The notes under the pieces: model-generated
The model's input: only the letters and a program-made list of their open reading frames with translations
Database searches by the model: none
What the model was told of the DNA's origin: nothing
Source: Lachnospiraceae bacterium
GTDB taxonomy: Bacteria; Bacillota; Clostridia; Lachnospirales; Lachnospiraceae
Direction of reading: 5' to 3'
DNA: 45,595 nucleotides
NCBI GenBank assembly: GCA_011959925.1
Contig: BLMD01000181.1
Location: forward strand, 1 to 45,595
Made by a program: the position numbers and the translations under genes
Part shown: in pieces, positions 11,116 through 26,200 of the stretch
Layout: each line of letters opens with the position of its first letter
Position numbering within the stretch: the stretch's first letter is position 1

Positions 11116-11130
11116 GTAATAGTGTCAAAT

Positions 11131-11204
11131 GTCGCTATAGCTCAGCTGGATAGAGCGACCGCCTCCTAAGCGGTAGGCCGGAGGTTCAAATCCTCTTAGC
11201 GACG
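11131..11204 (+). tRNA. tRNA-Arg (anticodon CCT)
   Basis: This is a complete cloverleaf. The acceptor stem GTCGCTA (11131-11137) pairs with TAGCGAC (11197-11203), discriminator G follows, and CCA is not encoded. The D arm is GCTC...GAGC. The anticodon stem ACCGC/GCGGT encloses the loop CTCCTAA with anticodon CCT, which reads AGG codons. The T arm contains TTCAAAT. The 41 bases from the anticodon loop to the acceptor end are repeated exactly at 12918-12958. Confidence 0.95.
11163..11203 (+). repeat. Left copy of 41-bp tRNA-derived direct repeat (putative att site)
   Basis: These 41 bases, from the anticodon loop to the 3' acceptor strand of tRNA-Arg, are identical to 12918-12958. Ends of tRNA genes are common targets of tyrosine integrases, and such duplications mark the edges of integrated elements. 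Weaker similarity, about four in five bases by eye, continues through the terminator to about 11333. Confidence 0.8.
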
Positions 11205-11211
11205 TCTAAAG

Positions 11212-11252
11212 AAATACCGAGAATACTGGGTTTCCAGAGTTCTCGGTATTTT
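11212..11252 (+). terminator. Intrinsic terminator of tRNA-Arg
   Basis: AAATACCGAGAA (11212-11223) pairs with TTCTCGGTATTT (11240-11251), ending in the T-run. A diverged copy lies at 12966-13006. Confidence 0.85.
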
Positions 11253-11440
11253 ACTATATCTGAGTTTGCTAATCAAAATAGCGGTTCTGCTAATTGTCCG
11301 AAAAATTTTGCTGAAAATCTTGTTAATTGAAAAGGCGAGAGTTTTTAGTTCAAAAATATCAAATTTGTCACAAGTTGGGACGAAGTTATGACACCTACGA
11401 AGATGCTTCTTTGAAAAATTGTAGAAAAATAATTTCTGTA

Positions 11441-11449: not shown

Positions 11450-11530
11450 GTAAAAACAAACAATAAGCGTACATAAAACTTGGTATTCCGATTTAGAATT
11501 TCGAGTTTAAGGTTAGAGAAAGTAACAGAA

Positions 11531-11557
11531 CTTGAAGTCGCAAATTGTGATTTCAAG
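11531..11557. repeat. ORF6N-associated palindrome, copy 1 (upstream)
   Basis: CTTGAAGTCGCAA, one central base, then TTGTGATTTCAAG: two 13-base arms with two G/A differences. The flanks AGTAAC (11521-11526) and GTTACT (11557-11562) extend it. It lies about 57 bases before the ORF6N start codon and matches the palindrome inside that gene. Confidence 0.75.
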
Positions 11558-11613
11558 TTACTCAGAGTTTCGAGGTTCCAATCTGGCACTTCAAAATAGA
11601 AAGGACGATAAAG

Positions 11614-12579
11614 ATGGCTGATACAAAACAAACAGCTCTGGCAAAGGCAAATAATGATACCCAAGAAATAAGCATTGAATCAGTAGAGTCCGATATAAAA
11701 ACCATGATATATGTTATCCGTAACCAGCAGGTTATGATAGACAGCGATTTAGCGATGCTGTATCAAGTAGAAACAAAGCGATTAAATGAAGCGGCAAAAC
11801 GTAATATCTCAAGATTTCCAGAAAGATTCCGATTCCAACTGACGAAAGAGGAATATGAAATCTTGAAGTCGCAAATTGCGACTTCAAGTTCGGAGGATGA
11901 TAATGGATATGGCGGGCGTAGGAAACTGCCATTTGTTTTTACAGAACAAGGAATTGCAATGCTTTCTGCGGTTTTGCGTAGTGATGTTGCTATCCGAGTA
12001 AGCATTAGGATTATGGACACTTTTGTAGAGATGCGGAAGTATATGGCAAATACACCTTTGTTGTATGATCGGTTAAAGGAAATAGAGGTTCGCCAGATAA
12101 ATTACCAAACGGAAACAGACGACCGTTTTGAGAGAGTTTTTGCGTACATATCCGAGCATGAGGAATCCAGTCAAAAAGTATTTTTTGACGGACAGATTTA
12201 CGATGCGTTCAGTCTGATCGTAAGTCTAATTCAAAAAGCAAAGAAAGAAATCACTCTGATAGACGGATATGTAGATGTTGGGACATTGAATCTGCTTTCA
12301 AAGAAAAATTCTGATGTTGCAGTTACAATTTATACACAGAAGAAGACCAAGCTAACGAAAGATGATGTTAAAAATTTCAATGCACAGTACCCGATATTGA
12401 AAATAAAATATACCAAAGTATTCCATGACAGGTTTTTGATTCTTGACCAAGCGACAGCCTATCATGTAGGAGCGTCTTTGAAAGATGCAGGAAAAAAGTG
12501 TTTTGGAATCAATTTAATTCAAGATGCAGGCATCATCAAAGACATCCTGCAAAGGTTGGAACTGGAAACGGAGAAATAA
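11614..12579 (+). CDS. ORF6N-domain DNA-binding protein with PLD-like C-terminal domain
   Basis: The 321-residue protein has an ORF6N domain at about residues 25-130. It runs from IYVIRNQQVMIDSDLAMLYQ through NISRFPERFRFQLTKEE and LKSQIATSS to GRRKLPFVFTEQGIAML. This family is typical of phages and mobile islands and is related to KilA-N DNA-binding proteins. A short coiled linker (about 145-185) leads to a C-terminal domain (about 190-318). There ITLIDGYVDVGTLNLL and FHDRFLILD resemble a phospholipase-D-type fold, but no HxK motif is seen, so nuclease activity is doubtful. The gene lies between two copies of the tRNA-Arg 3' end and is surrounded by copies of a palindrome that it also encodes at its LKSQIATSS motif. 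A regulatory or anti-repressor-like role is possible; function is unproven. Confidence 0.8.
   Translation: MADTKQTALAKANNDTQEISIESVESDIKTMIYVIRNQQVMIDSDLAMLYQVETKRLNEAAKRNISRFPERFRFQLTKEEYEILKSQIATSSSEDDNGYGGRRKLPFVFTEQGIAMLSAVLRSDVAIRVSIRIMDTFVEMRKYMANTPLLYDRLKEIEVRQINYQTETDDRFERVFAYISEHEESSQKVFFDGQIYDAFSLIVSLIQKAKKEITLIDGYVDVGTLNLLSKKNSDVAVTIYTQKKTKLTKDDVKNFNAQYPILKIKYTKVFHDRFLILDQATAYHVGASLKDAGKKCFGINLIQDAGIIKDILQRLELETEK
11862..11888. repeat. ORF6N-associated palindrome, copy 2 (inside the gene)
   Basis: CTTGAAGTCGCAA (11862-11874), one central A, and TTGCGACTTCAAG (11876-11888) form a perfect 13+1+13 palindrome. It encodes the LKSQIATSS motif of the ORF6N protein. Confidence 0.85.
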
Positions 12580-12590
12580 GAAGTTCTTTG

Positions 12591-12662
12591 AGGTCACAAT
12601 TTGTGACCTTAGAAAAAAGCAAAGAGGAATGATAAACTCTTTGAGGTCGCAATTTTCGACCT
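12591..12662. repeat. ORF6N-associated palindromes, copies 3 and 4 in tandem
   Basis: AGGTCACAA-T-TTGTGACCT (12591-12609) is a perfect 9+1+9 palindrome. AGGTCGCAA-T-TTTCGACCT (12644-12662) has one mismatch. Each is embedded in a direct repeat of roughly 40 bases beginning CTTTGAGGTC and ending TTAGAAAAAA plus GCAAA, offset by 53 bases. They begin 11 bases after the ORF6N stop. Confidence 0.75.
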
Positions 12663-12917
12663 TAGAAAAAATGCAAACAGCTTAAACTATTCTGGGATTC
12701 GTTGTGAAATGCAGGTATTAATTGGGAAAGATTTTACACCGTAACATTTCCCTAAATTCAAGCCCCTTGCTAATCGCCTGCTAAAAGGAGCATTTAAAAT
12801 ACCTTAAAATCAGCAGTCACACGGAGGTACGAGATAACATTCTGATTCCGTGACAAGCAAGGAAATAAAGGGATTATATAACACTAAGAGGGAGCTGCTT
12901 ACTGGCAAATGGTTCTA

Positions 12918-12958
12918 CTCCTAAGCGGTAGGCCGGAGGTTCAAATCCTCTTAGCGAC
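12918..12958 (+). repeat. Right copy of 41-bp tRNA-Arg direct repeat (putative att site, not a tRNA)
   Basis: Identical to 11163-11203 but without the 5' half of a tRNA: the upstream bases do not form an acceptor or D arm, so it is not a functional tRNA. A diverged copy of the downstream sequence follows to about 13088. The distance between repeat copies is 1755 bp. Confidence 0.8.
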
Positions 12959-12965
12959 ATCTTAA

Positions 12966-13006
12966 AAATTCCGGGAATACTGGGATGCCAGAGTTTCCGG
13001 TATTTT
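12966..13006 (+). terminator. Diverged copy of the tRNA terminator
   Basis: AAATTCCGGGAA pairs with TTTCCGGTATTTT in the same arrangement as 11212-11252, with several base changes that largely keep pairing. It may insulate rdrA from upstream transcription. Confidence 0.6.
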
Positions 13007-13178
13007 ATTATATCTAAGTTTACTAATCAAAATGGCAATTCTGCTAATGGTTCAAAAAATTTTACTGAAAACCTTGTTAATTAAAATAGAATAAGTACAT
13101 AAACGTATCGGCGCTATGAAAAGATGGCATAGAATTAATAAACAAATACTGCAAAAGCTTTTTCATTCTTTAAAAATA

Positions 13179-13187
13179 TGATATGAT
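13179..13187 (+). promoter_or_regulatory. Candidate extended -10 promoter for rdrA-rdrB
   Basis: TGA plus TATGAT forms an extended -10. No good -35 is seen (TTTTTC, 17 bases upstream). The predicted leader of about 70 bases ends at AAGGAGG (13248-13254). Confidence 0.45.
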
Positions 13188-13263
13188 ACAGTCAGATGTT
13201 TAAGTTGTTTCGAGATGATTATTTTTTTATCATATGCTCATAAAGCAAAGGAGGAAAAGTAAG

Positions 13264-15966
13264 ATGCGTGAAATTACAATCCTAAAGGGAGATGAATTTA
13301 AGATTGCGGTAAAAGATAAGATTGAAGAGAATGATATCTTTTTTGAAGAATACAGGCGTGCTGCAGAGATGCTGAATGAAATCACAGGGGCGTGGATCAG
13401 TAAAAAAGCGAGGCAGAGAGAATGGTCCTGGAAAGAGCAGGATTTTGAAAATAACATCATTGCATTCTGCGGTGAACGGGGAGAAGGAAAAAGCAGCGCG
13501 ATGATGACCTTTGTCAATGCAGTATATGAGGATAAGAAAAAAGAAAATAAGGTTTTTTCAGCGTGCAGATTCTTAAAAGAAGTGCGCTTTTTGACACCTA
13601 TCCTGATAGATCCCACGCAATTTGACGATGTACATAACGTATTGGATATTGTTTTGGCAAAGATTTTTCAGAATTTCTATATGGAATGTAACGATGATAC
13701 CAGTTCTTATGAAAGAAACAGAGAACAGCTTTTGGATCGGTTTCAAAAAGTTTACCGTTATATTTCTCTGATCAATAACCAGAAACAAATGCTGGATGAT
13801 GAATTTGATTATGAGGGGAACATCAGTAAATTGACAAAACTGGGAGAAAGTACAAGATTAAAAGAAGAACTCTCAAAATTGATTGCAGAGTACCTTGCCT
13901 TTATGGATCAGAGTGAAAAACAGCATCAGCTGATCATTGCCATTGACGATTTGGATCTTTGCAGTGCAAATGCCTATAAAATGGCGGAGCAGATCCGAAA
14001 ATATCTGATGATTCCGAATGTATCGATTGTGATCAGTGTAAAGATCGACCAGCTGGAATTATGTATCCGGGAAAAGAATCTGAAAGATTTTGAAGAAATC
14101 TATAAAAACAAAGAAGAAGCCGTATACAGACAGTTAAATAATGAAGTCAGTACAATGTCGGAACGTTATATTTCTAAGCTGATTCCGAAACAAAGACGAA
14201 TTTATCTTCCGAAAGTGCAGAGTTTTGATCAGATCCATATTACATACAAAGACAGAGAAAACGATACCATAATCTGGGAGTCGGTTCAGCCGGAAGAAGG
14301 AGAAAAAAATTTCACCTCCGTTATGCTGGATATGATTTATAAAGCTACGGGAATGCGGTTTCTACCGGAAGAAGGTGGAAAGAGTTATTTGTTTCCGAAT
14401 AATCTTCGGGATATGATCAGCTGGATTGCCTTAATCGGAAATTTCAGTAAAACAGAAAACAAAGAAAACGGTTATCTTGAGAATATTCAGGAATTTGAGC
14501 GTTATGTACAAAGAGAGTGGACAGAAGATCATTTAAAGCTGTATGAAGGCCTCACCTTACAGGATATTGAAACCATGGATGCTTACCACATGCATATTGC
14601 GGTAAAACGCATATTGGAAGGAATTTACAGTGAAATCAATCCAGGCTATGATCCGAAATATCATGTTCCCACACATGATCGTATGGACAGTTTTTATCAG
14701 GTCATCGGCTGGTTTTATATTTTTAAAAAAAATGTGGTGGATATCGGTACAGAAGGCTATATCAGCCGGCTGCGCACCATCTATACAATACGAATGAATC
14801 GGTGGCTGAACAGCGGAGAACAGACGGAACTGACAGAATTTATGAACGGATATTTGTTCGGAGAATATTTTTCAAATGTACTGCCTGCGCATGCAAATAG
14901 CGGTATGGACCGTTCCCGGTTTCCGGTTCCAACCATAGAATGTTATAATCAGATATTAAAGATGATCAAAAGTAACTTGCCTGAACTTTCGGTTCCGGAA
15001 TACGGAAAGATTTACAAGATTTCTAAAATCAAACAGGATGAAAACAGGACCTGCTGTTTACAGGCATGGATTGTGCTCGGATTATTGTCGAACATATTTT
15101 ATACCAATAATAATCAGGTGATCTTTTCTTCTGACGGAACTGTCATTTATGATAACAACAGCATCAATTATTTTATTCATGTCAGCTTAGAAAATTATCT
15201 GGTTGGGTTAAGCGATCTGGATGCGATCTATGATAAGGTAAATATGGCAAGGCTGGGAATCAAGGAAGAAGAATTTAAAGAAACGATCCGCAGGATGCAG
15301 GAAGAAAATAAGGAAATTATAGAGTGTGCAAAAAAACTTATCTGTAATGTAGATTTAATTCTGGGAATGAAAGATTACTGTATCAAACACCGGGATTATA
15401 AAGAAGATACAACGGATGATACGGACAGGTGCCGAAAGCTTGCAGATACATTTTTGAAAAATACTGCAGAGTATATGAATCAAAACGGGATCGCATGCAC
15501 GCCCGAAAAATTTCAAACATTTTCTTTGGGAGACGAAAAAGAACCGATGGCTGTGAGCAGCCTGTACGCAGAATTATTTGATTTAAGCCTGGCAAATAGA
15601 AATGTTCAGAAAGAATTTGAAAGAAAGAAAAAAGTAGACGATCTTGTTTCGGAATTTCGAAGAAAATTGGTTGAAATGCCGGATTACTGGAATCCCAAAG
15701 AAGTTGCGGTTCCAAAAACATTGAGAAAATTAACGGCAGAGAATTTGAAACTGCATTTGGATGATTTGGCGTCTAATATTCAGCGGTATAACGGAATTAC
15801 GAAAAAGCCGCTGGAACATGTGGATGTAGAAGGATTGTGCCGGTTATACGGAGCAATTGCGGATCTGTATATCAGAAATAAAGAATTAAATGTTCCTGAA
15901 GAATTGTATGGAGAATATAAACGCCTGGTACTCATTCAGGATCAAATAAAACTTGAGGAATCTTAA
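13264..15966 (+). CDS. rdrA: RADAR system ATPase RdrA
   Basis: In RADAR anti-phage systems RdrA is a large P-loop ATPase that assembles with the deaminase RdrB, which on infection converts adenosine to inosine. This 900-residue protein has a Walker A GERGEGKSS (residues 70-78) and a Walker B LIIAIDDLD with Asp228-Asp229. A KAP/AAA-like N-terminal half and a long helical C-terminal half with no motif I recognise make up the rest. Size, a single N-terminal ATPase domain and direct pairing with a deaminase of about 850 residues match RdrA. The ATG at 13264 is set by AAGGAGG at 13248-13254; an upstream in-frame ATG at 13234 lacks such a site. rdrB follows after 70 bases. No transmembrane accessory gene such as a SLATT protein is present. 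Confidence 0.85.
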   Translation: MREITILKGDEFKIAVKDKIEENDIFFEEYRRAAEMLNEITGAWISKKARQREWSWKEQDFENNIIAFCGERGEGKSSAMMTFVNAVYEDKKKENKVFSACRFLKEVRFLTPILIDPTQFDDVHNVLDIVLAKIFQNFYMECNDDTSSYERNREQLLDRFQKVYRYISLINNQKQMLDDEFDYEGNISKLTKLGESTRLKEELSKLIAEYLAFMDQSEKQHQLIIAIDDLDLCSANAYKMAEQIRKYLMIPNVSIVISVKIDQLELCIREKNLKDFEEIYKNKEEAVYRQLNNEVSTMSERYISKLIPKQRRIYLPKVQSFDQIHITYKDRENDTIIWESVQPEEGEKNFTSVMLDMIYKATGMRFLPEEGGKSYLFPNNLRDMISWIALIGNFSKTENKENGYLENIQEFERYVQREWTEDHLKLYEGLTLQDIETMDAYHMHIAVKRILEGIYSEINPGYDPKYHVPTHDRMDSFYQVIGWFYIFKKNVVDIGTEGYISRLRTIYTIRMNRWLNSGEQTELTEFMNGYLFGEYFSNVLPAHANSGMDRSRFPVPTIECYNQILKMIKSNLPELSVPEYGKIYKISKIKQDENRTCCLQAWIVLGLLSNIFYTNNNQVIFSSDGTVIYDNNSINYFIHVSLENYLVGLSDLDAIYDKVNMARLGIKEEEFKETIRRMQEENKEIIECAKKLICNVDLILGMKDYCIKHRDYKEDTTDDTDRCRKLADTFLKNTAEYMNQNGIACTPEKFQTFSLGDEKEPMAVSSLYAELFDLSLANRNVQKEFERKKKVDDLVSEFRRKLVEMPDYWNPKEVAVPKTLRKLTAENLKLHLDDLASNIQRYNGITKKPLEHVDVEGLCRLYGAIADLYIRNKELNVPEELYGEYKRLVLIQDQIKLEES

Positions 15967-16002
15967 AGCACAGGCGCTTTGAATGACATGAGAAACAGAT
16001 TC

Positions 16003-16018
16003 TGCAGCGGGCGCTGCA
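16003..16018 (+). other. Hairpin between rdrA and rdrB
   Basis: TGCAGC, loop GGGC, GCTGCA: a compact perfect 6-bp stem in the 70-base gap, a few bases before the AGAGGA ribosome binding site of rdrB (about 16022-16028). There is no T-run, so it is not a terminator. It could tune rdrB translation or mRNA stability. Confidence 0.5.
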
Positions 16019-16036
16019 TAAGACAGAGGAAACCAT

Positions 16037-18595
16037 ATGGATATTGAAAAAGGAAATCTGGAACTGTTATTTTTAAAAATACCATATACGAAGATAACAA
16101 AAAAACCGACATTAGAGAAATCAGGGCATGATTACAGACAGGTAAATAAAGATCTTTATATGCAATATGCCCAGAATGTATTTTCCAATTATTCGGAAGA
16201 TGAACGATATCATCATTATCAAAAACTGCTTCAGGATATGAAAAACAATCCGCAGGGAAATTGCAGCATCTTTCACTTTATTATGACAATTGCAAAAAAA
16301 CTTCTGGTCTATGACGGAAACGAAATGACCTGCCGGTTTCAGGAAATCCTGCGCTGGCGGGAAGTTTCTTTTTTGCTGGGGCAGGATTTTTTCACCTGTG
16401 CGTTTTTGGCGGCGCATGATCTGGAAAAAGGATATCAGTCGAAAAATTTTTCCTGGCTGCCGATCATACGCAGCAACGACAATCGCCTGCATAATATTTT
16501 AAAACGCGGCATGGCTGAGAATCATTTTCATTTGGCAGGATCTACCAAGGTATTTGAATTAAACTGGATCTGTCTGATGAACTTAATCGAAGGCAGAATG
16601 CACGATTTTAAGAAACTGCCTGCGGCGCTGCAGGTTCATTCTGTGGATCGGATTCGGAGTGAGGGAAACAGAGAAAGCTTTTATGCAGAATGCCAAAGAG
16701 CGGCGCTTTACCGGGTCTATCTGTTTTCAGTCCTCAAGCAGGATTACGCACTAAAGGAAAGAATAGAAAAACTGGTGCAGAAAGCAGACCGGGAAGAACC
16801 GATGGAGCGTCTGACGGCAGAGATTCAGGATATGATCGTGCTGGCAAAATATTTGTACGGGGCAAAAATAGAAAGCGCCGGTTCATCAGAGACCGACAGA
16901 ACGATAAAATGGAAGCAGATTAAAAAAGGTTCTGTTCTGGATTATGCATTTGAAAAGGATATGGCAGATAAAAATGACAGAGATTGCTGTCTTTTAACGG
17001 GAGAACGGCGTTTTTTGTACGAATGTTACAAAGCGTCTGTCACCGGAGCATTTAGCGGATATCAAAAAAATCTGTTTTATATCTATTTATCGATCCGCAC
17101 CCATTTCCGCGGAGAATTGATACAAATCAACAGACAGGTGGGATTTGCAAATTTCAGCAATTATCAGGACAGAAAAGAGATTTTTATTGAAGGACAGAAA
17201 GAATACGAAGATGAATTGATTCGCCTGGCGTTAAATGAAACGATGCGGAAACAAAATATCGTTTCCCTGGAAGCAAGGATCTGCCCAAAAAACAGCGCGG
17301 CAAAATTATATCAAAGTATTACAAAAAGCCAGAATATTGCAAAAAGCGAAACAAAAGCAGAAGAAAAAGTGATCTATGTGCTGCATTTTCCGAAAAAGAA
17401 AGATCAGGCGTTTAGTGCAGGTACGCCGCGCAACCAAAACGTTCGAATGGCTTCGTTTCGACAGGCAAGAAGCATTGCGGCTTTGTTGGAAAAGGAAACG
17501 GATATCAATGAAAAGATTCGTGGAATTGATGCCTGTTCCAGTGAAATTGCCTGCCGTCCGGAAGCGTTCGGACAGGTATTCCGTTATTTGCTGGATTTGG
17601 AATTTCCATGTAAGAAAGGCGGTATGAAAACAAAACTGCATGCAACATATCATGCCGGTGAAGACTTTTTGGATATTGCAGACGGGCTTCGTGCAATCGA
17701 CGAGGCAATAGAATTCTGCGGGCTGGAACGAGGAAGCAGGATCGGACATGCGCTGGCGCTTGGTATTTCTCCCTGGGATTACTATAAATATAAAGGATGT
17801 AAGCTGACACTTCCCAAGCAGGTTCTGTTGGATGATCTTGCCTGGATATTAGCCAAAGCAGACGAAACGGGATGCATCATAGAAAATCAGTTGCGAGCAG
17901 AATTAAAAGAACGATTTTATCATCTTTATGAAGAAATATACGGAGAACATGTGAGTACAAAAAACAAGGTATCTGTATGGGATTATTATCAAAGCTGGAA
18001 ACTGCGGGGCGATCAGCCTGCTTTTTACCGGTTAGAAGAGGAGGAATTTTTAAAACAGCTGACAAGGAAGCAGATTCAAAGATTTGACAGATACGGGTGG
18101 AACCATAAGGCAGGCAGTCATATCAGAAAAACGGAATGCGCCAGAAATTTATATTTTGCCTACCATTATAATCAAAACGTCAGACTAACCGGCGATGAAA
18201 AGACAGAATGGAAAATGGATCAAAGATACGCGGATCTTATTTATCAGCTTCAGGAAAAAATGATACAAAAACTGGTGCAGGAGGGAATCGGAATCGAAAC
18301 AAATCCGTCGTCGAACTATCTGATCGGTACCATTCAAAAATACGATGAACATCCCATCTTACGTTTTAACTCCAGAAAATTAAAAGATGTTCCGAAGAAC
18401 ATGTCGTTACATGTATCCATGAATACGGATGATCAGGGGGTATTCGATACATTGCTGGAAAATGAATATGCATTGATGGCCATGGCTTTGAAAAAAGCAA
18501 AAGATGAGAATCATCAGCCGTTATATGATATCGAAGATATTTACGAGTGGATCGATTATGTGCGGAAAATGGGAGTTGAGCAGGTGTTTGTATAA
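16037..18595 (+). CDS. rdrB: RADAR system adenosine deaminase RdrB
   Basis: RdrB is the deaminase half of RADAR; known homologues form large shells and deaminate adenosine or ATP. This 852-residue protein keeps every metal and catalytic motif of the adenosine deaminase superfamily. These are HFH at residues 163-165, HAGE at 539-542 (metal His and catalytic Glu), RIGHALALG with His571, and NTDDQG with Asp798-Asp799. The long insertions between HxH and HAGE and the extended N-terminus make it far larger than housekeeping adenosine deaminases (about 330-350 residues), as expected for RdrB. It is co-transcribed with rdrA and not part of any purine operon. Activity is predicted because no key residue is missing. 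Confidence 0.87.
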   Translation: MDIEKGNLELLFLKIPYTKITKKPTLEKSGHDYRQVNKDLYMQYAQNVFSNYSEDERYHHYQKLLQDMKNNPQGNCSIFHFIMTIAKKLLVYDGNEMTCRFQEILRWREVSFLLGQDFFTCAFLAAHDLEKGYQSKNFSWLPIIRSNDNRLHNILKRGMAENHFHLAGSTKVFELNWICLMNLIEGRMHDFKKLPAALQVHSVDRIRSEGNRESFYAECQRAALYRVYLFSVLKQDYALKERIEKLVQKADREEPMERLTAEIQDMIVLAKYLYGAKIESAGSSETDRTIKWKQIKKGSVLDYAFEKDMADKNDRDCCLLTGERRFLYECYKASVTGAFSGYQKNLFYIYLSIRTHFRGELIQINRQVGFANFSNYQDRKEIFIEGQKEYEDELIRLALNETMRKQNIVSLEARICPKNSAAKLYQSITKSQNIAKSETKAEEKVIYVLHFPKKKDQAFSAGTPRNQNVRMASFRQARSIAALLEKETDINEKIRGIDACSSEIACRPEAFGQVFRYLLDLEFPCKKGGMKTKLHATYHAGEDFLDIADGLRAIDEAIEFCGLERGSRIGHALALGISPWDYYKYKGCKLTLPKQVLLDDLAWILAKADETGCIIENQLRAELKERFYHLYEEIYGEHVSTKNKVSVWDYYQSWKLRGDQPAFYRLEEEEFLKQLTRKQIQRFDRYGWNHKAGSHIRKTECARNLYFAYHYNQNVRLTGDEKTEWKMDQRYADLIYQLQEKMIQKLVQEGIGIETNPSSNYLIGTIQKYDEHPILRFNSRKLKDVPKNMSLHVSMNTDDQGVFDTLLENEYALMAMALKKAKDENHQPLYDIEDIYEWIDYVRKMGVEQVFV

Positions 18596-18769: not shown

Positions 18770-21700
18770 ATGAGGATAAAAACAATTACAAAGCTGTTGT
18801 CAGCAGTGTTATCGGCTTCGATATTAGCCGCATCCGTGCCGACGGCATTACTGGCGGAACCTGCGGTGCCGGCAGAAGCCGGTGAAACAACAACGGAAAG
18901 AAATCCGCTGAGGTTATGGTATAATACCGCGGCTGAAAATTGGCAGGAGCAGACGCTTCCGATTGGAAACGGTGATATCGGAGCCAATATTTACGGCGGA
19001 ATTGCAAGCGAACATCTGACATTTAATGAAAAGACCTTATGGACAGGAGGTCCCAGCAATTCCAGACCAAACTATAACGGGGGTAATTTAGAAAACGTAG
19101 GAAACGAGGGGCAGCTGGTAAAAGAAATTCAGGAGTTGTTTGCGGCGGGAAATTCAACGGCAGCCACTAACAAATGCAGTACACTGATCGGTGCGCAAAA
19201 TGGTTATGGCGCTTATCAGGCGTGGGGAGATATTTATTTTGATTATGAGGGAGTGACTGCCTCAGCCGCACAGGAGTATGTCAGGGACCTTGACCTTGAG
19301 ACAGCATTGTCAACGGTAAGCTTTCAGGCAGACGATACGAGATATACGAGAGAATATTTTGTCAGCAATCCGGATAATGTTCTGGTGGCAAAGCTTTCTG
19401 CAGAGGGAAGCCGGAAATTGAATGTAAACGTCCGGTTTACATCGAAGCAGGGTGTTACGGCAATGGCTTCCGGCGATACGCTTCTGGTAGCGGGAAGCGT
19501 TTCTGACAATCAGTTAAAATTTGATTCTGTGTTAAAGGTGGTAAATGAAGGAGGAAGCGTAACGGAAGACGGAGCGAGTCTTCAGGTTCGGGATGCTTCA
19601 TCGATTACCGTCTATGTATCAGCAGCGACGGATTATAAAAATATTTATAAAACTTATCGTACAGGAGAAACGAGCGAAGAACTTCATGCCAGAGTGGCAG
19701 AAGATGTTGATGCAGCGGCACAGAAAGGATATGACGCGGTAAAAAGAGATCATATTGCAGATTACAGGGAATTGTTTTCACGCATGACGTTAGATCTTGG
19801 GGCTGAGGTTTCCGATAAGCCGACGAATGATCTGTTAGCTGCATATAAGGAAAATACTGCAAGTGAAGCGGAGAGAAGGCAGTTAGAAACGATGCTGTTT
19901 CAATATGGAAGGTATCTCACCATTGCTTCTTCCAGAGAAAACTCTCAGCTTCCGTCCAATCTTCAGGGTGTCTGGAATGATTCAAATTCACCGCAATGGG
20001 CTTCGGATTATCACTTAAATGTAAATCTGCAGATGAATTACTGGCCGACATATGTGACAAATCTGTCGGAATGCGCAGATCCACTGATCCGTTATGTAGA
20101 CTCTCTGCGCGAGCCGGGAAGGGAGACGGCAAGAATTTATGCGGGTATTGTAACAGATGAAGAGCATCCGGAAAACGGATTTATGGCGCATACGCAGAAT
20201 ACGCCGTTTGGATGGACCTGTCCGGGCTGGGATTTTTCCTGGGGCTGGTCGCCGGCGGCAGTACCGTGGATTTTACAAAATTGCTGGGATTATTATGATT
20301 TTACAAGAGATGAGGAGTATCTGAAAGAAAATATCTATCCGATGATGAAGGAAGAGGCTGTGCTTTATGACCAGATGATGATCGAAGATGAAGACGGTAA
20401 GCTGGTATCTTCGCCGTCTTTTTCACCGGAGCACGGACCGTATACAAGCGGCAATACCTATGAGCAGTCGTTAATCTGGCAGCTTTACGAAGATGTGATT
20501 GAAGCGGCAGAAATTGTAGGGGAAGAAGATACGGAAAAAATAAACGGCTGGAAATCCAATCAGGAACGGTTAAAGGGACCGATTGAAATCGGTACGGACG
20601 GACAAATCAAAGAGTGGTATACAGAAACTACGCTGGGAAGCGTAGGAGGAGAAGGATACGGGCACAGACATCTTTCCCATATGCTTGGGCTGTTTCCCGG
20701 AGATTTGATTTCGGTGGAAACGCCGGAATGGCTGGAAGCGGCAAAAGTCTCCATGAACAACAGGACGGATGCAAGCACAGGCTGGGGCATGGGACAGAGA
20801 ATTAACACCTGGGCTAGGCTCGGAGAAGGAAATAAGGCATATAAGCTGATCACGGACTTGTTCAAAAACGGTATTTATGCAAATCTCTGGGATACGCATC
20901 CGCCGTTCCAGATTGACGGTAACTTCGGTTATACCGCAGGCGTAGCGGAGATGCTGGTTCAGAGCAACGTAGGGTATATCAATCTGCTTCCGGCGCTTCC
21001 GGACGTATGGCCCAAGGGAGAAGCAAACGGTCTGCTGGCAAGAGGAAATTTTGAAATTGACATGAGCTGGAGCAAAGGTCAGGTAGATACGGTAACCCTT
21101 ACATCCAATAAGGGAAATAAAGCAGTCATACAGTATAAAAACGTGATTCTGGCTATGGTTACAGATGCAGAAGGCAATCCGGTAGAAGTGGAAAAATTAA
21201 GCAATAACAGAATCTCATTTGACACGGAAGCAGGGAAAACATATAAAATTTCCGGTTTACCGGAAAAAGAAGAAGTCCCGTCTAATCTTAGAATTGAAAA
21301 TAAGGCAAAAGATACGGTAACACTTGCATGGGATGCAGTGGAATCGGAAGATGCGGTATATAATGTATACCGCAAAACAGAAGGCGGTGTGATCACACAG
21401 ATCGCTTCCGGAATCTCAGATACTTCTTATACGGATGCAGAAGCGTATGATATTTTAGGAACGCTCACGTATCAGGTAACGGCGGGTTCCGGAATGACTG
21501 AATCCATTATGAGCGCATCGGTCGAGAAAACAGAAGAGAGCCAGATGGTAGACGATACCAGTTCTGACATTACATATAGCGGCTGGGCAAAATGGGACGC
21601 AACCGGACATTACGGAGGATCCATTCAATATGTACAGAATCCGAACGGCAACGAAACCATAACACTCACTTTTACCGGATGCGGGATTGAAGTCCTTGCT

Positions 21701-23185
21701 CCGAAGAATGCAGACAGAGGATTTTTGGAAATCAGTATTGACGGTAAGGTTGTGGAAAAAGCAGATACCTATGCGTCCGGAGATTTGAAACAGCAGGTTG
21801 TATTCAGTAAAAAAGATCTGGATGCAGGAGAGCATACCATTGTTGTTAGAGCTGCCAATGAAAAAAATAGCAGCAGCAGAGGAACCAAGGTTGAATTTGA
21901 TGCATTCCGAATTTTTACATCAATAGTTACCCCGCCGTCACTTCCGTCAGACAGCCGATATCATGTACTTGCAGTAGAAGAGGGACGCGTGATGGCACAG
22001 TGGGAAGAGACAGAAGGTGCAGATTCCTATAACATCTATGTGAACGGGGAACTTGTAAGTACATCAGATAAACCATATGCATGGATTGCAGTGGAAGCAG
22101 GAGCGGAACGTACGATTGAAATTAAATCGGTGGCAAACGGCGTAGAATCCTCAGATGGTATTTCCTTTGGTACGACGGTACCGTCAGAACCGAAGACACC
22201 TGAAAAAGTAACCGGTCTTACCGCGGTAAGAGATACATCGGATCCTACTCTTGTACGGATTTCCTGGCAGGCGTCGGAAGGCGCAGAGAAATATCTGGTT
22301 TATCTGGATAATAAGCAAGTGGCAGTTACAGAAAATACCGAATTGTCGCTCGGCGGATTTGATACGGCGAAAGAATATACCATCTTAGTCTATGCAGTGG
22401 CAGGTCAGGACAATATCTCAGAATTTACAGAAGTTACGGTGGAAGCATGGAAAGAGATATCGGTGTCCATTTCGGTAGCTCAAAAGAGCAAAGAATTAAA
22501 GCCAGGAGAAATATATGTGATCAAAGCGTCTGCTGCACCGTCTGATGTTCATCTGATCTATCGCTCTTTAAATGATAAGATTGCAGCAGTAGATCAAAAC
22601 GGAAAAGTTACCGCAATTGCGGAAGGTGAAACGGATATTGCGATTACATGTATGGAAGATGCAAAGGCTTCGGTAACCGTACATATTAAAGTAATAAAAT
22701 CAGAAAGCAGCGGTTCCGATTCTGTTCCCACATTAAACAGTAAGGTGGAAGATGCAAATCTTGAGTACAGAGTGACCAAATCAGACGCCGTTAACGGTAC
22801 GGTAACAGTCTCCGGCGTAAAAGCGGCGGGCAAGAAGAAAAGTACGATCACAATTCCTGCGACGGTATCCAAAAATAATTATACCTTTAAAGTTACGGCA
22901 ATTGATAAAAATGTCTTTAAAAGCTGTAAGAAAAAATTAAAGAGTGTGATTATCGGAGCAAATGTGAACGAAATCGGAGCAAACTGCTTCCAAAAATGTA
23001 CGAAGTTAAAAAGTATTCGTTTTATGGGCACAATTGCACCGAAGAAAGTCGGAAAAAATGCATTTAAGAGAATAAAATCGAACTGCAAGATTTACTATCC
23101 AAAGAATATGCGCAAATCGGAACTCAAGAAATTAAAGAGTAAAATGAAGAGCGCAGGCAAAAAAGTAATATATAAGAAAAAGTAA
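18770..23185 (+). CDS. Secreted multidomain GH95 alpha-L-fucosidase
   Basis: GH95 enzymes remove terminal alpha-1,2-linked L-fucose (some prefer L-galactose) by inversion, as in mucin O-glycans. This 1471-residue protein has a signal peptide (about 1-35, cut near ALLAEP). The N-terminal sandwich contains PIGNGDIGANIYGG, and the helical barrel runs to about 720. Candidate catalytic residues are Glu554 (SFSPEHG), Asp716 (FQIDGNFGY) and Asn417/Asn419 (YHLNVNLQMN), by analogy with Bifidobacterium AfcA. Next come a fibronectin-III domain, a sugar-binding-like sandwich (GWAKWDATGHYGGS), two more FN3-like domains, a Big_2-like domain (about 1235-1315) and a terminal LRR_5/BspA-type module ending in a Lys-rich tail. 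No LPxTG anchor is seen. The enzyme probably acts outside the cell. Confidence 0.9.
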   Translation: MRIKTITKLLSAVLSASILAASVPTALLAEPAVPAEAGETTTERNPLRLWYNTAAENWQEQTLPIGNGDIGANIYGGIASEHLTFNEKTLWTGGPSNSRPNYNGGNLENVGNEGQLVKEIQELFAAGNSTAATNKCSTLIGAQNGYGAYQAWGDIYFDYEGVTASAAQEYVRDLDLETALSTVSFQADDTRYTREYFVSNPDNVLVAKLSAEGSRKLNVNVRFTSKQGVTAMASGDTLLVAGSVSDNQLKFDSVLKVVNEGGSVTEDGASLQVRDASSITVYVSAATDYKNIYKTYRTGETSEELHARVAEDVDAAAQKGYDAVKRDHIADYRELFSRMTLDLGAEVSDKPTNDLLAAYKENTASEAERRQLETMLFQYGRYLTIASSRENSQLPSNLQGVWNDSNSPQWASDYHLNVNLQMNYWPTYVTNLSECADPLIRYVDSLREPGRETARIYAGIVTDEEHPENGFMAHTQNTPFGWTCPGWDFSWGWSPAAVPWILQNCWDYYDFTRDEEYLKENIYPMMKEEAVLYDQMMIEDEDGKLVSSPSFSPEHGPYTSGNTYEQSLIWQLYEDVIEAAEIVGEEDTEKINGWKSNQERLKGPIEIGTDGQIKEWYTETTLGSVGGEGYGHRHLSHMLGLFPGDLISVETPEWLEAAKVSMNNRTDASTGWGMGQRINTWARLGEGNKAYKLITDLFKNGIYANLWDTHPPFQIDGNFGYTAGVAEMLVQSNVGYINLLPALPDVWPKGEANGLLARGNFEIDMSWSKGQVDTVTLTSNKGNKAVIQYKNVILAMVTDAEGNPVEVEKLSNNRISFDTEAGKTYKISGLPEKEEVPSNLRIENKAKDTVTLAWDAVESEDAVYNVYRKTEGGVITQIASGISDTSYTDAEAYDILGTLTYQVTAGSGMTESIMSASVEKTEESQMVDDTSSDITYSGWAKWDATGHYGGSIQYVQNPNGNETITLTFTGCGIEVLAPKNADRGFLEISIDGKVVEKADTYASGDLKQQVVFSKKDLDAGEHTIVVRAANEKNSSSRGTKVEFDAFRIFTSIVTPPSLPSDSRYHVLAVEEGRVMAQWEETEGADSYNIYVNGELVSTSDKPYAWIAVEAGAERTIEIKSVANGVESSDGISFGTTVPSEPKTPEKVTGLTAVRDTSDPTLVRISWQASEGAEKYLVYLDNKQVAVTENTELSLGGFDTAKEYTILVYAVAGQDNISEFTEVTVEAWKEISVSISVAQKSKELKPGEIYVIKASAAPSDVHLIYRSLNDKIAAVDQNGKVTAIAEGETDIAITCMEDAKASVTVHIKVIKSESSGSDSVPTLNSKVEDANLEYRVTKSDAVNGTVTVSGVKAAGKKKSTITIPATVSKNNYTFKVTAIDKNVFKSCKKKLKSVIIGANVNEIGANCFQKCTKLKSIRFMGTIAPKKVGKNAFKRIKSNCKIYYPKNMRKSELKKLKSKMKSAGKKVIYKKK

Positions 23186-23268: not shown

Positions 23269-26200
23269 ATGCAAAGAAAAACAATCTTAAAGTTATGTTC
23301 TGGAGTTATTTCGGCGGCTGTGCTGATGACTTCCATACCTGTATCGATGTTGTCGAAACCGGCAGAAACGGGAAAGGCTAAAGCAGAGAAAAAAGAGGAA
23401 AATCTGCTGAAACTTTAGTATGATGAATCAGCCGTTGAGGGGGCTGCACAGGCACAACTGACTGCCGAAAACGATATCTGGGAACAGTACACACTTCCGA
23501 TCGGCAACAGTTTTATGGGAGCAAATGTTTACGGCGAAATTGTAAACGCATTTATTGCAGGAGATATCGAAAATGCGGAGACGATCTGCGGGCAGCAGCT
23601 GGTAGGGATATCAAGCGGATACGGCGAGTATCAGTCCTGGGGCGATCTCTATCTGACGTTTCAAAACCTGAATGCGGATAAGAGCACAAATTATGAACGT
23701 AATCTGGACTTAACAACCGGTATTGCAAATGTGGATTTTACTATCGGAGATACGGATTATCACAGAGAATACTTTGTCAGTTATCCGGACAATGTTCTTG
23801 CCATGAAACTGACGGCAACGAAAGAGACGCTTGATTTTAATGTCCGGTTTCCTGCGGATAACGACGATTTGAATGAAAACCAAAAAAAGTTGTTGCTTAT
23901 GAAACAGAAGCCGCATCCAATGTAGGAACGATTGTAATGGCAGGGCATCTGCCGGACAATCAGATGAAAATGAATTCCATGCTGAAATTGGAGACAAACG
24001 GAACGGTTACGGAAGGTGAGGACGGAGAATCGCTGAATGTTGCCGGGGCAGGCGAAGTAATCATTTATATTTCGGCGGACACGGATTACAAAAATCAATA
24101 TCCGCATTGCCGTACCGGAGAAACCGATCAGCAGCTTGCAGAAAGCGTTGCAAAAGACGTTCTGGATGCGTCGGAAATGGGATTTGAGGTAGTGAAAAAC
24201 AGACATTTGACAGATTATCAGAGATTATTTGGAAGAGTGAAGTTGGATATCGGATAGACGTTTTCCGAAAAACGACAGACGAGCTGCTTACGGCATATAA
24301 GACGGATGCAGCTTTGGAAGAAAAGAAACTCTATGAAGCATTGCCGTATCAGTACGGCAGGTATCTGACGATTGCCTCTTCCAGAGAAGGAGATCTGCCT
24401 TCTAATCTGCAGGGAGTATGGCAGAACCGGACAACAGGCATAGAATGGGGCAGTGATTATCATATGAATGTAAATCTTCAGATGAATTACTGGCCGACAT
24501 ATTCTTCTAATCTTTCGGAATGTGCAATACCGCTGATCGAGTATGTGGATTCCCTAAGAATGCCGGGGCGCGTCACGGCGGAGTCTTATTTCGGAATTGA
24601 AAGCAAACCGGGAGAAGCAAACGGATTTAGTGCACATACGCAAAATACCCCGTTTGGCTGGACCTGTCCCGGCTGGAGTTTTGACTGGGGCTGGTCGCCG
24701 GCAGCGGTACCATGGATCCTGCAGAATTGCTGGGAATATTATGAGTATACCGGTGACGTAGAATATATGAGAAAGAATCTTTATCCGATGCTGAGAGAGG
24801 AAGCGATTCTCTACGATCAGATACTGGTAGACAGCGGCGTGAAAATCACGTTGGAAGACGGTACGGAAAGCACGCGTTTAGTTTCCGCACCGGCATATTC
24901 GCCGGAATGGGGTGAACGTACCTTAGGTAACGTTTATGAAAACAGTTTGATCTGGCAGCTGTATGAAGATGCAGCGATAGCGGCAGATATTTTAAATGTA
25001 GATGAAGATCTGGCGGAGCATTGGAGAGAAAACCAGAGCAGGCTTTCCCCGATTGAAATCGGCGACAGCGGTCAGATTAAGGAATGGTTTAATGAAACCA
25101 CGGTAAATCTAGGGCAGCATCGTCATATGTCTCATCTTTTGGGGTTGTATCCGGGAGATCTGATCGCAATGGATAACGAGGAATGGCGCGAGGCAGCGCA
25201 GGTGTCTCTGGGATACGCATCCGCCGTTCCAGATTGACGGAAACATTGTGCTTACATGGGACGCGGTAGCAGGCGCTGCTTCTTATCATGTCTACCGAAA
25301 AACAGCAAACAGTTATGAGAAAATCCGAACGACGGCAAATCTTACTTATACGGATGCCGGAAGAGTTGATTTTGCAGAAGCTGAAAAATACTATGTTGCA
25401 GCCGTATCTGCGGACGGAAAGGAAGGAGAGCATTCCGAAATCGTCAGCATCAAACGTCCGATCCGATGGGTCGACAACACGAATGAAGGAATTGAATATA
25501 ACGGAAATTGGGGTACATGATCCGATGGCAAGCATTACGGAGGATCGATACACTTTGTGGAAACGATGACCGGGGATGAAACCATTGAATTTGCATTCAA
25601 AGGAACAGGGATCGATGTCATAGCTCCTAAAAACTCCGGACGTTACGGAGAACTCAAAGTATATATTGACGAAGAAGAAACGGGCATTGCAAACTGCAAC
25701 TCCGACAGCGGCCTTGCCAAGCAGGTCGTTTTTTCTAAACGGGACCTGGAGGACGGAACCCATACCATTAAATTAACAGCGGAAGGGCAGTCAGGCAGAA
25801 AAATAGAATTTGATGCATTTACGGTATACGAAAAAGGATGGGAGAACATTCCCGAAATTAATGTTTCGTTTGATTTAGAAAAAACGCCGTTGTCCGGTTC
25901 TGCGCCTGCGTCACAAACCGTGCTGGCAGGAAGCAGTATCGTATTGCCTGCCTGCAGCGCATCCGTGACGGATTATCGGTTTGCCGGATGGAACGACGGA
26001 AAAAAAGTTTATGCAGCAAACAGAGAATATAAAGTATTGTCGGCAGACATGACATTTACAGCCGTATGGGAGCGGACAGCGCAGACGGTTACAAAGCAGT
26101 GTACCATGACGGTAAATCCGCCTGCAGCCGCAGCTGTCACAGAGGTTAGTCTGGAAAAAGACAGAATCGTTTTAAAGAAAGAAGATACGACTTCTCTGGT

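Follow-up and report, generated by a model that had tools for sequence, protein, structure and literature searches.

The gene pair rdrA-rdrB at positions 13264 to 18595 of the window, the whole 45,595-nucleotide stretch of contig BLMD01000181.1 (assembly GCA_011959925.1) that was analysed, very probably represents a RADAR of the stand-alone kind (rdrAB), complete and carried by a bacterium of Lachnospiraceae type; it would act as in the proposed RADAR mechanism. RADAR is a known anti-phage system which is thought to poison infected cells by conversion of ATP into inosine nucleotides, and by homology the window pair most likely works like RADAR, turning ATP into ITP upon infection. Protein identity, intact motifs, fold match, gene pairing and the charge pattern of the crown have been computed here. 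A core RADAR of two genes, as it had been claimed from a sequence-only reading of this DNA, emerges from profile matches, from family matches to solved RdrA and RdrB, from the predicted folds and from the conserved pairing of the two genes.

Both rdrA and rdrB are uninterrupted open reading frames on the same, forward strand. The mechanical rdrA frame begins at 13234 (910 aa) and its stop codon ends at 15966; since a strong ribosome-binding site is situated just 5' of the ATG at 13264 (aaaggaggaaaag), the latter is probably the correct start of the RADAR AAA+/KAP-type ATPase gene (13264-15966, 900 aa). A spacer of 70 bp (15967-16036), with a likely ribosome-binding site (gaggaaa), leads to rdrB (16037-18595), which encodes the RADAR adenosine/ATP deaminase of 852 aa. 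The two frames, the 70-bp gap and all six motifs that had been read from the sequence, GERGEGKSS and IDDLD in the rdrA product and HFH, HAGE, RIGH and NTDD in the rdrB product, were found intact. Compared with two relatives (L014 and L015), differences at codon position 3 amount to 2.2-3.3 times those at position 2 in both rdrA and rdrB, and both frames are therefore under protein constraint. A possible promoter (TTTTCA-16-TATGAT, with TG before the second hexamer) lies on the forward strand at 13160-13187, 76 bp 5' of the rdrA ATG; the 23 candidates that a promoter scan of the region 5' of rdrA returned, versus a mean of 19.1 (sd 4.0) in shuffled sequences, are not above background.

The deaminase is recognized almost from end to end. 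The NCBIfam RdrB profile covers residues 28-849 of 852 (E 4.1e-55, 187.7 bits) and the PADLOC RdrB model matches with E 4.4e-31, while the strong matches in a PDB sequence search are exclusively E. coli RdrB (8fnv, E 1.4e-27), which also tops the search with the RdrB family profile (E 2.8e-54). An AlphaFold2 model built on a 17-row alignment (mean pLDDT 80.9, pTM 0.80) was matched by Foldseek to E. coli RdrB 8fnv with TM 0.71/0.78 and an rmsd of 6.5 A over 908 alignment columns, at approximately 18% identity. Eight chains of RdrB or RdrA-RdrB entries are found at E<=1.2e-25, followed by the human adenosine deaminase-like protein at E 6e-3 (TM 0.26/0.59). H163, H165, H539, E542 and H571 correspond to H152, H154, H498, E501 and H530 of the E. 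coli enzyme, the zinc ligands and catalytic Glu according to the available part of PMC9994260, and this His tetrad and the catalytic E542 are invariant across 22 aligned rows. The Glu triad E595-E597, located at a three-fold contact of E. coli RdrB, where a charge-reversing mutation abolished defence as stated in the same partially available source, has no counterpart in the aligned segment of window RdrB, which reads K-N-K in the PDB alignment, a site for which the E. coli positions were counted by eye and the family-profile alignment has a gap, so that its position is uncertain. As the triad is absent, an RdrB shell, if formed, would use other contacts.

RdrA has diverged further. The NCBIfam RdrA profile matches the ATPase part only (residues 40-346 of the 910-aa form, E 1.6e-17, 63 bits), no RdrA match was obtained in the PADLOC scan of the window, and a PDB sequence search with window RdrA alone returned nothing at E<=10. 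Of 16 aligned RdrA rows, the window counted in the scan, 15 match the NCBIfam model at E<=0.001; a single PADLOC RdrA model is matched by 11, to which the window does not belong. A family profile of 21 rows, comprising the window and its relatives, aligns to RdrA of Streptococcus suis (8fnu) with E 2.2e-41, the match spanning positions 67-872 of the 883 in the profile and running through the C-terminal lobe, and to E. coli RdrA at E 2.5e-19 to 6.1e-19 in the ATPase part. Chains of RdrA or RdrA-RdrB entries, the S. suis protein first, occupy Foldseek ranks 1-20 for the AlphaFold2 model of RdrA (16 rows, pLDDT 82.1, pTM 0.70); the fold match itself is modest, with TM 0.49/0.54, an rmsd of 13.2 A and 15% identity to S. 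suis RdrA. Walker A, Walker B and the sensor-2 Arg are invariant in the 21 aligned rows.

Two of the checks proposed along with the sequence-only reading point in the same direction, as in the profile search NCBIfam RdrA and RdrB and PADLOC RdrB were matched, below the curated cut-offs and with no PADLOC match for RdrA, and RdrB and RdrA entries top the respective fold searches among solved structures. The NCBIfam thresholds which window RdrB (188 of 800 bits) and window RdrA (63 of 600 bits) do not reach are database cut-offs and not biological features.

In E. coli, the crown residues K150, E151 and R162 dock RdrA on RdrB according to the available part of PMC9994260; the equivalent positions in window RdrA are occupied by R153, E154 and R165. 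The basic/acidic/basic pattern is present in eight of eight aligned rows of the window's clade, but not one of the other 13 aligned rows retains all three charges, so that the pattern is not a family-wide mark. Identity of window RdrA to L014 and L015 is 0.60-0.78 in the first three deciles of the protein and 0.36-0.54 in the last five. The lower conservation of the last half compared with the ATPase part is fitting for a fast-evolving phage sensor, a function that has been proposed for the C-terminal half of RdrA (PMC9994260, available in part).

A scan of genome contigs for RdrB relatives recovered 19 loci, 18 of which carry an rdrA relative directly upstream of rdrB, partial or broken in three; at the remaining locus (L030) the contig begins inside rdrB. 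In one of the relatives rdrA is split in two frames (L019:7181-9981), in another the C-terminal part only of rdrA stands beside an intact rdrB (L020:8832-9980), and in L022, the contig of which begins inside rdrA, likewise the C-terminal part only is present. At L028:5293-7882 it is rdrB that is split in two frames. In the RdrB tree of 40 rows, in which the midpoint root serves drawing only and a few long rows are of unsure place, window RdrB falls into a clade of 13 rows (support 98/100), composed of eight named Lachnospiraceae, two rows labelled Eubacteriaceae, two further genomes of the window's family and the window itself. Around 11 of the 13 loci of this clade, L095 and L096 having been left out of the clustering, no neighbour gene family is common to more than two loci; among individual members, L017 has a serine-recombinase gene upstream, L016 a small membrane gene for an MscS-type channel 86 bp downstream, and L021, at 314 bp downstream, the gene for Lamassu LmuA, which counts in favour of the RADAR reading.

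Within the window's family, 16 of the 397 genomes scanned gave an RdrB-like match at E<=1e-20, in one case as a short fragment; within its genus, RdrB matches are present in six of 15 genomes, its own included. As RdrB of the other five genomes of the genus is merely 32-40% identical over the matched pieces, the rdrA-rdrB pair was probably acquired horizontally. No match to RdrB was obtained in the phage records searched, and one relative was confirmed among 14 candidate stretches of viral contigs. This IMG/VR contig of 9763 bases (L068) bears a RADAR-type gene pair of which rdrB runs off the end, and groups with L063 in the tree. A gut habitat of the host is suggested by the names of its relatives only. 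In the open-access library searched, no RADAR paper for Clostridia or Lachnospiraceae was retrieved, and Table S1 of PMC9994260 with its 270 systems may include Lachnospiraceae.

Transferred from published work on the E. coli and S. suis systems, from which oligomer state, substrate, trigger and defence are inferred, the mechanism would be as follows. RdrA would assemble into a ring-shaped AAA+ ATPase, the divergent C-terminal lobe of which would sense a phage cue, and its helical crown would dock on the hollow RdrB shell to switch on the deaminase. RdrB would then convert ATP/dATP into ITP/dITP, whereby nucleotide pools would be poisoned and phage replication stopped at the cost of the cell.

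It is unlikely, though more readily imagined than the other alternatives, that the pair is RADAR by descent with other chemistry or use, with either an RdrB that acts on another adenine compound (AMP, a signal nucleotide or RNA) or an RdrA that gates it for a non-phage stress. The low identity between RdrB and its E. coli counterpart in the fold comparison and the absent Glu-triad contact would be in line with such a change, as would a literature that is divided between RNA editing and ATP deamination (PMC9994260, available in part); however, every zinc and catalytic residue of RdrB is kept, and according to the same article the RADAR of S. suis, likewise a Firmicute, protects E. coli from T-even phages. 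That the copy is decaying and inactive seems quite improbable, because, in spite of the broken relatives L019 and L020 (rdrA) and L028 (rdrB), both window frames are intact with all catalytic residues present and constrained codon positions. Pfam alone would propose a KAP/STAND ATPase without relation to RADAR, placed next to an adenosine deaminase of housekeeping type, with A_deaminase (E 4.4e-13) as the sole match to RdrB at E<=1 and weak AAA/KAP matches to RdrA. The end-to-end RdrB profile, an RdrB fold far ahead of adenosine deaminase folds, the RdrA family profile that leads to solved RdrA and the pairing at nearly all loci speak against it so clearly that this explanation, hardly credible, was rejected. 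A complete RADAR with the proposed mode of action stays the preferred reading of the pair, although the lack of PDB and PADLOC matches for RdrA by itself, the scores below the NCBIfam cut-offs, the low TM of the RdrA fold match, the absent Glu triad and the restriction of the crown charges to one clade count against it.

The sequence-only reading had also placed RADAR in a tRNA-linked island next to an ORF6N gene, of which the adjacency stands and the RADAR-bearing island was not borne out. A tRNA-Arg(CCT) gene was predicted by ARAGORN at 11130-11206 (forward strand), and the order DUF3881-tRNA-Arg is kept in the three genomes of the same genus examined (G003, G004 and G008). The 3' part of the tRNA together with about 120 bp beyond is duplicated on the same strand at 12918-13086 (repeat families D1 and D2), and the resulting repeat pair, 11163-11332 and 12918-13086 with a spacing of 1.75 kb, encloses the ORF6N gene alone and leaves RADAR immediately outside; in the window's own genome no third copy turned up with as many as 2 mismatches allowed. 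The ORF6N gene (11614-12579, forward strand) is therefore the likelier insertion at the tRNA site, and the RADAR pair may be older than, or separate from, this insertion. RADAR as cargo of a tRNA-Arg element was considered and is unsupported by this repeat structure, and no RADAR insertion border was found at the tRNA-Arg site. Relatives of one gene that follows tRNA-Arg in G004, matching in pieces of 67% and 36% identity, lie on contig C322 of the window's own genome, which suggests rearrangement at the tRNA-Arg site.

The ORF6N gene product, with an N-terminus of the phage anti-repressor type (Pfam ORF6N E 1.5e-33, PHROG anti-repressor 2.5e-26, PADLOC PDC-S05 1.3e-126), has a match in only one of 20 other genomes searched, a fragment in G008, and the gene is probably separate from RADAR. 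A palindromic piece of its coding sequence, around LKSQIATS (11862-11891), is also repeated upstream of the gene (11528-11559), and a tandem pair resembling this piece lies just downstream (12571-12671; repeats D3, D5 and I1). On the other side of RADAR, 174 bp downstream of rdrB, an intact GH95 glycosidase gene (18770-23185, 1471 aa) is located, behind which a decayed second GH95 copy with stops is found at 23539-25829. With the ORF6N and GH95 genes as the neighbours of RADAR, the absence of a membrane accessory gene that had been read from the sequence was confirmed.

Other RADAR loci are differently equipped. In every one of the 11 rows of a separate RdrB clade (support 100/99), rdrA is immediately preceded by a TPR-repeat gene in the same orientation; this also holds for L067, which is too short for the RdrB tree. 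At these 12 loci (L025, L031, L064, L066, L067, L097, L098, L100, L101, L102, L103 and L105) the TPR proteins comprise 398-538 aa, and their genes lie -89 to +171 bp away from where the mechanical rdrA frame begins; the window's clade shows the gene in none of its 13 rows, of which one (L022) is a contig that starts inside rdrA. Pfam matches to TPR, mostly weak, were obtained for five of six copies scanned and none for L025, TPR structures were matched clearly by the profile of the gene family, and three copies tested did not match any PADLOC model. In the window's family the TPR gene is present in seven of 397 genomes (E<=1e-15), each time with RADAR on the same contig, and looks like a candidate third core gene of RADAR. 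A search of the open-access literature with the term tetratricopeptide gave no paper on a TPR gene of RADAR, the founding RADAR paper being outside the coverage.

Downstream, a small gene with 2-4 transmembrane segments overlaps the rdrB end at five of the 12 TPR loci (L064, L097, L098, L100 and L102). The product is Csx27-like in L064 (E 2.7e-9) and weakly so in L100, and matches DUF4231 in L098 and, below the cut-off, in L097, while that of L102 could be assigned to no family. A gene for a SIR2-like protein with a STAND ATPase overlaps the rdrB end by 4 bp at L031:9345-11969. In two distant genomes, large genes of one shared cluster follow rdrB at 6-24 bp (L026:12599-15850 and L027:10845-13793), of which the copy scanned, that of L026, contains leucine-rich repeats.

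A tentative reading of these loci, which we lean against, is that Clostridial RADAR is a modular radiation with an extra gene that varies by clade, a TPR gene upstream in one and leucine-rich repeat or membrane genes downstream in others, the window's clade being a stripped two-gene form in which the RdrA C-terminal lobe would be the sole sensor and the RdrB shell would have different contacts. If it were true, RADAR would have a third core gene so far unlisted, that of the TPR protein, and the trigger could be located by comparison of the two clades. A two-gene clade and a clade with a constant TPR partner would make the question of the RADAR trigger testable by comparison. RADAR has been reported as rare, with 270 systems-bearing genomes of approximately 38,000 in the available part of PMC9994260; the 16 of 397 family genomes with an RdrB-like match differ from this in sampling and thresholds, so that the rates are not strictly comparable. 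The window pair is too divergent for the usual annotation cut-offs, and, in view of these counts, sequence cut-offs may hide part of RADAR.

Among known systems, the RADAR of S. suis SS993 (RdrA 8fnu), also a Firmicute and a system that has been tested (PMC9994260), is nearest to window RdrA by family profile and as top fold match, although window RdrA alone is undetectable against 8fnu by sequence, and the comparison covers RdrA only. That the divergent window version might differ in trigger or substrate, as suggested in the sequence-only reading, is a conjecture. With the E. coli/Citrobacter RADAR (RdrA 8fnt/8hr7, RdrB 8fnv) the window shares the RdrB fold, the zinc and catalytic residues and charge-conserving crown positions, whereas the likeness of RdrA in sequence is limited to the ATPase part and the Glu triad is missing from window RdrB. 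Cad1 or CARF-ADA, an effector of type III CRISPR which also makes ITP according to the available part of PMC11645235, has a related deaminase C-terminal domain, and the PADLOC CARF_ADA model matches window RdrB with E 7.3e-8 and the best stretch at residues 739-815; in contrast to this fused one-gene effector, the window has separate ATPase and deaminase genes, and Pfam detects no CARF domain in RdrB.

Three RADAR subtypes have been distinguished, stand-alone rdrAB, Csx27-associated and SLATT-associated (PMC7699616, available in part). The Aureibacter plasmid pAT1 (L089), an example of SLATT- or Csx27-associated RADAR, encodes an RdrB that is 35% identical to window RdrB over 88%; there, an annotated SLATT gene overlaps the rdrB end, while in the window no small membrane gene is found by rdrB. 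Flanked by the ORF6N gene upstream and the GH95 glycosidase gene downstream, the window pair is, as judged from its sequence, assigned to the known stand-alone rdrAB subtype, as a sequence-divergent member within a mainly Lachnospiraceae clade.
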